Part shown: positions 16,749 through 45,155 of the stretch, in pieces
Layout: each line of letters starts with the position of its first letter
How positions within the stretch are numbered: the stretch's first letter is position 1
Assembly (NCBI GenBank): GCA_019115525.1
Contig: DXDJ01000066.1
Coordinates: 1 to 45,155 of the forward strand
Source of the DNA: Candidatus Helicobacter avistercoris
GTDB taxonomy: Bacteria > Campylobacterota > Campylobacteria > Campylobacterales > Helicobacteraceae
DNA: 45,155 nucleotides
Direction of reading: 5' to 3'
Made by a program: the position numbers and the translations under genes
Notes under the pieces: model-generated
What the model saw: only the letters and a program-made list of their open reading frames with translations
Database searches by the model: none
What the model was told of the DNA's origin: nothing

Positions 16749-17878
16749 ATCTAGAGATTGCAAGGAAGCTTATCTCCTATCCTACGATTACACCCCAAGA
16801 GTGTGGAATCTATGAGTATATTTCCACTTTGCTTAAGGGTTTTTCTTATGAAAGAATGGATTGTGAAGAGGTAAAAAATGCCTTTTTCTATAAAGATTTT
16901 TCTCCTCACAAAAAAGAGGGAAAAATCCATCTTTGTTTTGCTGGACATATTGATGTTGTCCCTGCTGGGGAAGATTGGGAGAGTCATCCATTTGAGCCAA
17001 CTCTAAAGGGAGAATATCTCTATGGTAGGGGAGCTCAAGATATGAAGGGGGGGATAAGTTCTTTTTTGGATGCGATTGGGAAGATTCAAAAGGAGGGGGT
17101 AGAGGGCAATCTTGCTATTTCTGTTCTTCTTACAAGCGATGAAGAAGGTGTTGGGATAAATGGCACGCGCTATGTGCTGGAGTGCCTAGCCAAAAACAAT
17201 CGCCTCCCTCATTTTGCCCTAGTGGCTGAGCCAACTTGTGAGAGTGTTGTGGGAGATATGATTAAGATTGGACGCAGAGGTTCAATCAATGGAGTGTTAA
17301 AAATTTTTGGCAAGCAAGGACATGTTGCCTATCCTAGCAAATGCATCAACCCCATTGAGCTCTTAGGCTCAAAACTCGGAGAGATTGCAGGAAAAGATTT
17401 GGATAATGGGGATGAAAATTTTGAGCCAAGCAAGATTGTTGTTACTGATATTCGTGGAGGTATGCAAGTATGCAATGTCACACCGAGTGAATTAACAATT
17501 ATGTTTAACATCCGCAACTCTACGCTCACAACACAAGAAAATGTCAAAAGACACTTTGAAAATCTTTTAGGCCACTTAGAATATGATTTGAAGCTCACAA
17601 TCAGCTCTTATCCTTTTTTAACTAGCAAAGAAAATAAGCTCACCCTTCATCTTCTGGATTGCATTGAAGAAATTGTTGGGATAAAACCAAAAGTGAGCTG
17701 TTCTGGAGGAACAAGTGATGCACGTTATTTTGCACCTTATGGGATTGGTGTAGTGGAATTTGGGGTATGCAATGATCGAATTCATGCAAAAAATGAACGC
17801 GTAAAATTGCAAGATTTGGATAACCTTACAAAAATATTTAAAAAGCTAATACAATCTTTTTGCAAGGAGAGTTTATGA
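16745..17878 (+). CDS. dapE: Succinyl-diaminopimelate desuccinylase
   Basis: M20 motifs CFAGHIDVVPAG, GRGAQDMKGGI, TSDEEG, SGGTSDARYFAPYGIGVVEFG; ATG 16745 overlaps cmoA stop. Confidence 0.95.
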   Translation: MNLEIARKLISYPTITPQECGIYEYISTLLKGFSYERMDCEEVKNAFFYKDFSPHKKEGKIHLCFAGHIDVVPAGEDWESHPFEPTLKGEYLYGRGAQDMKGGISSFLDAIGKIQKEGVEGNLAISVLLTSDEEGVGINGTRYVLECLAKNNRLPHFALVAEPTCESVVGDMIKIGRRGSINGVLKIFGKQGHVAYPSKCINPIELLGSKLGEIAGKDLDNGDENFEPSKIVVTDIRGGMQVCNVTPSELTIMFNIRNSTLTTQENVKRHFENLLGHLEYDLKLTISSYPFLTSKENKLTLHLLDCIEEIVGIKPKVSCSGGTSDARYFAPYGIGVVEFGVCNDRIHAKNERVKLQDLDNLTKIFKKLIQSFCKESL

Positions 17879-18474
17879 GAGAAGCAAGAATTGATGTTAG
17901 AAATGAAGTGTGTCAAGATCCTGCTAATAAAGTCAAGGGAGTTTTGGATCAACTCAAAGAACAAAATATCCAAGTTACAAAAATTGAAATCGTAGGGGAT
18001 TGTGAAAAAGCACTTGCAGAGGTTGAAAATTTTCTTATCAATCAAGGATATATTTTTGAGACAAGTGGCAATGAAAGTGAGTTTAGTATTGTTGTAAAAA
18101 GCAAAGAAGAAAAAAAGATTGAAGAGCTTGAGGAAAAGCCTATTGAAATAATCCAAAAAGCCTTTTTTCTCAAAGATGACAAAATGGGAGATGGAGATCT
18201 TGGAAGGAGATTGCTAGATGGTTTCTTTGCAGAACTTTCTCGCTCTTATAAAGTCCCACGATATATCATTTTGAGCAATCGGGCAGTTTTTCTTGCCCAA
18301 AATGATATTGCCAAGTCATTGCAAATTTTGGAGAGAAAAGGCGTAGAAATTTTGCTTTGCAAAACTTGCGTTGATCATTTTATGATCGAATCAAAAATCA
18401 TTGTAGGAAAAATCAGCAATGCCTTAGAGATCGCAGAAGTTTTTATGAGTGATATTTCTATTATCTCACTATAA
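17875..18474 (+). CDS. yedF: YedF-like selenium-metabolism protein (TusA-like + DsrE-like domains)
   Basis: N-terminal TusA-like domain (RIDVRNEVCQDP), C-terminal DsrE-like domain (YIILSNRAVFLA...LERKGVEILLCKTCVDHF); directly upstream of selD. Confidence 0.85.
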   Translation: MREARIDVRNEVCQDPANKVKGVLDQLKEQNIQVTKIEIVGDCEKALAEVENFLINQGYIFETSGNESEFSIVVKSKEEKKIEELEEKPIEIIQKAFFLKDDKMGDGDLGRRLLDGFFAELSRSYKVPRYIILSNRAVFLAQNDIAKSLQILERKGVEILLCKTCVDHFMIESKIIVGKISNALEIAEVFMSDISIISL

Positions 18475-18483
18475 GGAGAATCA

Positions 18484-19557
18484 ATGTCAAAAATGACTTC
18501 TTATGTTCGCTGTGTAGGTTGAGCTACAAAAGTGGGTCTGGAGGACCTAAGACAAATTATGAGTGGCATACAAACCTATCAAGATTCAAATCTTTTGGTG
18601 GGATATGAGCATAGCGATGATGCTGGAGTATATCAGCTAAGTGAAGAGATCGCACTTGTGGAGAGTGTGGATTTTATTACCCCAATCGTTGATGATCCTT
18701 ATGTGTATGGGCAAATTGCAGCTGCAAATGCCTTAAGTGATATTTTTGCAATGGGAGCTGTGGCAAAAACAGCAATGAATCTTTTAATGTGGGATCAAAC
18801 CCATATTAGCAAAGAGATGATTGGCGAAATCCTAAGAGGAGGGGCTCAAAAGCTCAAAGAAGCAAAGGTTACGCTTCTTGGGGGACATAGCGTTGGGGAT
18901 TTGGAGCAGAAGTACGGACTTAGTGTAAGTGGTGTAGTGCATCCTAAGAAGGTGTGGAAGAATCATAGTGCAAAAATTGGGGATGTGTTGGTTTTGTGCA
19001 AGGCTTTGGGAACAGGGATTGTATCAACAGCACTTAAAAATAATCATATTGCCTACTCTCCCAATCTTGAAGCTATCAAAAGTATGACACAGCTCAACCT
19101 TAAGGCTTCTTTGTGTGCTAGAGAATTTGAAATCCATGCTTGTACAGATATTACAGGTTTTGGGCTTGTTGGGCATTTGCTAGAGATGTGTTCAAGTGAT
19201 AAGAGTGCAAAAATTTTCTTTGATGATGTGCCTTTGTTTGATGGATTATCAAACCTAATCAATGCTGGACAAATTCCAAATGGGAGTAAAGAAAATTTCG
19301 CTTATCTTTCAAATTTTGTAGAAAATCACTTGCAAGAAAAAGATGCAATCGCTCTTTTTGATACGCAAACTTCTGGAGGATTGCTTTTTGCACTTCCAAA
19401 AGATCAAGCTCCAAAGCTTGTACAGTCTTTGAGATTCTTAGGATATGAAAAAAGTGCAATCATTGGTGAGATGATCGCATTGGGAGAGAAAAAGATCATT
19501 CTTGATTATTTCTCTCCCCCTACAATAACTCCTCCACCTAGCACGCAATCATCCTGA
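18484..19557 (+). CDS. selD: Selenide, water dikinase with selenocysteine at in-frame TGA (18520-18522)
   Basis: ATG 18484 after aaggag; [12 protein letters not shown]-(TGA)[13 protein letters not shown] continues in frame into a full SelD ([49 protein letters not shown]). The ORF track starts after the TGA and truncates the catalytic N-terminus. Confidence 0.93.
18533..18549 (+). promoter_or_regulatory. Putative bacterial SECIS hairpin
   Basis: TGGGTC-TGGAG-GACCTA: 6-bp stem (one G-U), 5-nt loop with G at loop position 2, loop starting 16 nt after the TGA. Confidence 0.7.
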
Positions 19558-20549
19558 TACACCACCAAAGCCTGTCCTTTGGCTACGCCATAGACAGGTT
19601 CTAAAAGATTTGCCACGATATTTCCTTGTGTATCAAGAGAGAGTAGGGCTTGTGATTTTGTGCTTCGATATCGAATCTTGATTTTATATTCCCCATTTTG
19701 AAAATTCATAGGCAGGCTTTTGTTGTGTGCAAAAACCTTGGATGTAGATAACTCTTCTTTTTTCCCTACAATAATTTCATTTTTCTTTGCATCAATAGCC
19801 AAAACATAATGAGGCTCTAAAGCTCCCCTAACACTAAACCCCTTGCGTTTTCCAATGGTGTATTGCATATATCCCTTATGCTCTCCGACAATCTCGCCCT
19901 TTAGATTTCTCACAACCCCTTTTTGATCTACTTCAAGACTTCTTTTGAGGATGTCAATGTAATCAGTTTCTACAAAGCAAATTTCTTGAGATTCTTTATA
20001 TGTTTCAAGACTTCCAAGCCAAGGCATTGCTTCAAAGGCTTCTTTTTTTACATTGACTTTGAGATAATCCCCCAGTGGAAAAATGAGGCGATCAATAGCA
20101 TCTTGAGAAAGTGCATAAAGAAAATAGCTTTGATCCTTGCTAGGATCTAGGGCTTCTCTAATTCTTTTTGCCCCATTGATCTCTCCAATTCTTGCATAAT
20201 GTCCAGTGGCGATTTTCTCGCATCCCATTTGTAATGCTCTCTCCAGTGCTAAACCAAACTTCATTAGTGGATTGCAAAGAGCACAAGGGTTTGGAGTTTC
20301 TCCTCGCTGATAAGATGCGATAAACTCATCATAAACTAAAGTTTTAAACTCTTCTTTTGCCTCAATAACATGAAATTCAATGCCTAAATTGCTAGAAACT
20401 TTATGGCAGTTTTGGATAAAGACTTGATGTTTTTCCTCTTTATCATGAAGTTTGAGATAGATTCCTATAACCTCATGCCCTTGGGATTTTAGCAAATACG
20501 CACAATACGAACTATCTACACCCCCACTCATTAATAACGCAATTTTCAT
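19506..20549 (-). CDS. mnmA: tRNA-specific 2-thiouridylase
   Basis: [27 protein letters not shown]-loop, [26 protein letters not shown]. Confidence 0.93.
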
Positions 20550-20575: not shown

Positions 20576-21769
20576 TTAATCACTGCTACGATAGCGGAAT
20601 TGTCCCTTTTTAAACACCATTTTTAATCCACCGATGCCAAAAAGCCAACGATTTTCAATGCTATTTTTTACAAATGCACTCATCTCTCCGCTAATTTTTT
20701 TGCCAAAAACGACACCCACACCATCAAGATGACCGATTGAGCAAACTGAGCCACGATTAATGAATCTAAAATCTTGGTGATTTGTTTTTCCCTCTAATTT
20801 ATCGCTTAAAAGATTGCCCACATACTCCCCCATTTGTGTAGCAAGCTGAGCTGTTGGGACATAAATCACATCTTTTTGAGCATAAATCGCACAATCTCCT
20901 ACAACATAGATGTTTTCATAATCCTCGCTTCTAAGTTGAGCATTGACTTTTAGTCTTCCTTTCTGATTTTGGATTTTTGAGTAAAACTCAATACTATCAT
21001 TTCCCTTTACTCCAGCACTCCATAAAATTGTATCGCCATAGATTTTGCTCTGCTCTCCATTGTAAGAGATGAGCACACCATCGCTTTGACACTCAAGAAC
21101 GCTAGTTTGGTTATAAAGAGTTACGCCCATAGAAATAAGCTTGCTCTCTGCCTTGTCTTTGAGTTTTTGAGGAAAAACAGGCAAAACATTGCTAGAGCGT
21201 CCAATACAGGAGATTTTCACATCTTTGGGATTGATTCCATAGATTTTGCAAAGTCTTGGCACATCGCTTGCAAGCTCTGCACTAAACTCAATTCCTGTTA
21301 AACCACTTCCACAAACAATAAAGGAGAGATCGTTTTTATCTTGAGTAATATGATAGTCTTTGAATTTTCGCTCAATATGCTTGCAAAGCCTAAGTGAGGC
21401 ATTGAGCGAGGAGAGCTTGTAGGCATGCTCTTTTACGCCCTTGATTCCAAAATCATCAGGCTTAAATCCTAATGCTACTACCAAAATGTCATATTCATAT
21501 TCACCAAGTTTTCCTATGACTTTATTTTCTTCTGGACAAAGCTCCATAACCTTATCTTTGATGAAAGAAACTTTGGGGAGAAGAGGACGATAATAAATTT
21601 TTGCTTTTCTCTCTCCTAAAGTCCCTACGGCAATCTTGTGCAGTAGTGTGGTTTGATAATGATAATCGTGTTTTGAGATCAGGGTAATTTGTGCATTTGG
21701 ATTGCGTTTTTGAAGTGTTAGAGCGGTTTTTAGACCACCATATCCACCACCTGCAATAAGAATTTTCAT
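20576..21769 (-). CDS. NAD(P)/FAD-dependent oxidoreductase, type II NADH dehydrogenase-like
   Basis: N-terminal [17 protein letters not shown], second [34 protein letters not shown]. Confidence 0.85.

Positions 21770-36863: not shown

Positions 36864-45155
<8,292 letters not shown>

Follow-up and report, generated by a model that had tools for sequence, protein, structure and literature searches.

The locus on contig DXDJ01000066.1 of Candidatus Helicobacter avistercoris raises the question of whether selD, the gene for selenide water dikinase (selenophosphate synthetase), is itself a selenoprotein gene whose catalytic residue is encoded by an in-frame TGA. The window, the whole stretch of DNA that was analysed, comprises 45,155 nucleotides and carries selD on the forward strand at positions 18484 to 19557. 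The mechanical ORF list, which treats TGA as a stop, takes GTG 18532 as the first start and gives a protein of 341 aa from which the SelD active site is lost, as the first-pass annotation of this DNA had pointed out. Translation from ATG 18484 confirmed the longer frame proposed there, with an internal TGA at 18520 to 18522 (residue 13) and an open frame thereafter up to the TGA stop at 19555 to 19557, encoding 357 residues with selenocysteine (Sec) at residue 13. The sequence AAGGAG precedes ATG 18484, marking it as the real start of selD.

The identity of the gene is supported by full-length family profiles. The product matches TIGR00476 with 356 bits (cut-off 125), with the TGA lying inside the match, as well as both AIRS domains (Pfam ID PF00586 and PF02769). 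The N-terminal motif reads G-U-A-T-K, with the Lys at +3 from the catalytic Cys/Sec, and is aligned in the relatives. Of the named species, H. cholecystus (85% identity in SelD) and H. brantae (70%) stand nearest to this Helicobacter, and the closest relatives with solved structures are all annotated as selenide water dikinases or selenophosphate synthetases. One of these is the SelD structure 2yye/2zod, which we take to be the Aquifex aeolicus enzyme; it aligns over residues 4 to 333, a stretch that takes in the N-terminal Gly-Cys(Sec)-Ala-x-Lys motif, although the similarity is moderate (245 bits) and the listed chain has Cys at the site. The TGA codon aligns under this N-terminal Cys of chain 2yye and with the catalytic Cys/Sec of the relatives, which places it where the first-pass annotation had put it.

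In a comparison set of 99 related genomes, 61 SelD genes scored above the TIGR00476 cut-off. Their codon for residue 13 is TGA in 53, TGC in 5 and TGT in 3, so that the in-frame UGA has both Sec and Cys homologues at the same site, the pattern looked for in a bacterial selenoprotein. In Helicobacter, Campylobacter and related bacteria the TGA form of SelD is the usual one, judged by those relatives searched that carry the gene. Within the window, TGA is the terminal stop of 8 of the 27 frames checked; there is thus no general reassignment of TGA, and the codon at 18520 needs a local signal.

A candidate for this signal is a bacterial SECIS (bSECIS) hairpin at 18533 to 18549 on the forward strand, consisting of TGGGTC (18533 to 18538), the loop TGGAG (18539 to 18543) and GACCTA (18544 to 18549). 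The elements and spacings originally described for it were verified, with the stem beginning 10 nt and the loop 16 nt after the TGA and a G at loop position 2. Published limits for bSECIS elements (PMC13188914) are a loop of 3 to 9 nt, a stem of 4 to 16 bp, a distance of 16 to 37 nt from the UGA, a G in the first two loop positions and an energy of -7.5 kcal/mol or lower. The hairpin lies within all of them, with a loop of 5 nt (or 3 in the fold of lowest energy), a stem of 6 to 7 bp, a distance of 16 to 17 nt, the G in place and an energy of -7.5 kcal/mol, exactly at the threshold. Conservation of the outermost T-A pair is weak, and the second pair is G.U. The downstream stretch folded alone forms the hairpin, with an energy only modestly better than that of shuffles (-7.5 kcal/mol; 11 of 200 shuffles as good, z -1.7), but once the TGA is included the minimum-energy fold differs, pairing GGTTGA with the 3' arm of the hairpin, so that the single-sequence fold is weak evidence. 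This rival fold showed no covariation above shuffles on the alignment. A search of the hairpin region against Rfam matched no family, even at E-values up to 10.

It is the comparative evidence, not the single-sequence fold, that puts the hairpin beyond chance. All 53 TGA-SelD genes retain the four inner pairs and 52 of them a 5-bp stem, whereas synonymous resampling with each gene's own codon usage predicts about 7 (7.2) intact 5-bp stems. The Leu/Pro codon in the loop is CTG in 29 genes and CCG in 24, and never another, while elsewhere in these selD genes CTG makes up 6.6% of the Leu codons and CCG 9.5% of the Pro codons; in selD of the window, CTG is absent from the other 38 Leu codons counted. 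Position 2 of the loop (alignment column 33) is G throughout. Compensatory changes in the stem replace GC by CG or AU, and UA by CG, and do so even where the encoded residues are not the same (APEEL, DPSGL). At 0.301, the covariation score lies above all 500 shuffles (0.192 +/- 0.012) and above every slid version of the pairing (at most 0.147), with the reservation that related genes were counted as separate and are not independent, so that this score and the hairpin counts overstate the significance. The effect size leaves little doubt that selection acts on the hairpin as an RNA structure in addition to the protein that it encodes, and the bSECIS reading is borne out by conservation, resampling and covariation together. 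With more than 50 genes, the comparison is a clear demonstration of such selection.

These results also bear on the alternative in which the hairpin arises as a side effect of conserving the protein, and a near-cognate tRNA reads through the UGA. The encoded VG(L/P)xDL stretch is indeed well conserved, which together with the weak single-sequence fold speaks for such an origin; protein conservation would, however, account for few of the intact stems, and neither the fixation of a rare loop codon nor compensatory changes accompanied by different amino acids fits it. We regard this alternative as highly improbable.

The machinery for Sec insertion is complete. The selA gene (550 bits), selB (275 bits) and the gene for tRNA-Sec are immediate neighbours on another contig (C28) of the same genome, which excludes the absence of selA, selB and selC that the first-pass annotation had named as fatal to its reading. 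ARAGORN identifies the tRNA as tRNA-SeC with the anticodon tca (UCA); its Rfam tRNA-Sec score of 44.8 is just below the gathering score of 47, and the tRNA-Sec genes of the congeners score alike. The mnmH gene is found on contig C22. Among the relatives, selA is above the cut-off in 51 of the 53 genomes with TGA-SelD, the other two genomes being 58% and 61% complete, and in four of the eight genomes with Cys-SelD, the other four having none. This distribution is the pattern expected of a real Sec codon.

The TGT or TGC found at this codon in eight relatives could raise the suspicion that the TGA arose through a sequencing error or through a mutation that disables the gene, which would then be a Cys-SelD or a pseudogene. 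The same TGA, however, occurs in independent genomes, including 5 of the 5 congeners searched besides its majority among the SelD genes overall, and beyond this codon the frame stays open and well conserved, in a genome whose sel machinery is complete. The misread Cys codon considered in the first-pass annotation is thereby refuted, and we give this explanation practically no weight. The short 341-residue protein is the output of a default ORF caller and has a negligible chance of being the functional product, since it is without the catalytic Cys/Sec and the motif Lys kept by SelD family members, and GTG 18532 falls within conserved codons, whereas the AAGGAG motif stands before ATG 18484.

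The region from 18484 to 19557 is therefore, on the sequence evidence, almost certainly a Helicobacter selD encoding a Sec-containing selenophosphate synthetase, with predicted SelB-dependent Sec insertion at the UGA via the hairpin. Actual insertion of Sec and a catalytic role for Sec13 in this organism are what we infer from this. At UGA 18520, SelB carrying Sec-tRNA(UCA) would bind the hairpin so that Sec is inserted instead of termination, a step drawn from the known bacterial system (PMC13188914; PMC4561486). The Sec13 selenol would sit on the N-terminal loop of SelD and handle selenide for selenophosphate synthesis; a catalytic residue on a flexible N-terminal loop has been described for SelD generally (PMC13188914). 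Selenophosphate would then pass to MnmH for selenouridine in tRNA and to SelA for Sec-tRNA, serving FdhA and SelD itself, which would make SelD both maker and user of the Sec supply. Being dependent on its own product, SelD may be kept going by inherited SelD or by some background activity.

FdhA is the only clear other selenoprotein candidate in this draft genome. A search suggested by the first-pass annotation recovered the 5' part of fdhA (locus L017, C9:4634-5107), but the contig ends some 15 codons short of the position of the Sec codon in the congeners, and the remainder was not found in the assembly when searched with a congener's protein. The FdhA genes of the congeners contain the in-frame TGA; in one of them (G002) there are two fdhA copies (L086 and L090), both matching with an in-frame TGA. 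Searches of the Candidatus H. avistercoris genome for selenoproteins of the SelW and DUF466 types found none. It is nonetheless very unlikely that SelD is the main or only remaining selenoprotein, with a Sec machinery chiefly sustaining itself and selenouridine, because the break in fdhA is a contig end and the congeners have Sec-FdhA.

The E. coli SelD, which we take to be a Cys form with Cys17, and the Cys-SelD proteins of three genomes of the set (G074, G097 and G065) belong to the same family and share the reaction predicted here; they differ in having Cys for Sec (GAGCGCK motif) and no hairpin at the site. Four further Cys-SelD genes (L025, L027, L030 and L039, in genomes G085, G067, G078 and G012), all from genomes with selA, keep a SECIS-like hairpin with 5 intact pairs and a CCG loop codon, as though their change from Sec to Cys were recent. 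Fossil SECIS hairpins of this kind are known in other families (PMC1794560). In genus g7 (G011, G023, G032, G042 and G052), the SelA matches are without the first 46 to 69 profile positions, and four of the five genomes are without SelD, while G032 has a TGA-SelD with an intact hairpin. H. pylori is likewise reported to be without SelD.

Sec-containing SelD has been described in Epsilonproteobacteria (Genome Biol Evol 2015; PMC4607533), with a 5/6-bp SECIS hairpin shortly after the TGA whose loop G does not vary and which covariation supports, so the class is not new, as the first-pass annotation had stated. The gene of the window shares with that Campylobacterota system the selenoprotein nature of selD, the hairpin type and the partners SelA, SelB, SelC, YedF and MnmH; we see no substantive difference, and it adds one more species. 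The arrangement is well supported, ordinary for the group and already known. The same study noted that Sec-SelD genes are often truncated in databases; gene callers that treat TGA as a stop cut SelD at the active site here, and presumably in related genomes with that TGA.

Directly upstream of selD lies yedF (17860 to 18474, forward strand), encoding a TusA plus DsrE-like selenium metabolism protein (TIGR03527, 125 bits, cut-off 110), whose start is better placed at ATG 17875 than at the listed TTG; yedF and selD are likely part of the same operon. Convergent with selD is mnmA, encoding tRNA 2-thiouridine synthase (19506 to 20549, reverse strand; TIGR00420, 361 bits), and the 3' ends of the two genes overlap by 52 bases (19506 to 19557). 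A similar selD/mnmA overlap occurs in H. cholecystus (locus L098, 4014 to 4068). Near selD, an FAD/NAD-linked oxidoreductase (20576 to 21769, reverse strand) bears a weak resemblance to the oxidoreductase family that occurs as a fusion with SelD (TIGR03169; 83 bits against a cut-off of 310) and to a Sec-type sulfide quinone reductase. At the end of the window, one uninterrupted frame (36867 to 45155) covers at least 2763 residues and runs past the boundary; it is probably a fused rpoB-rpoC gene, a fusion known in Helicobacter.
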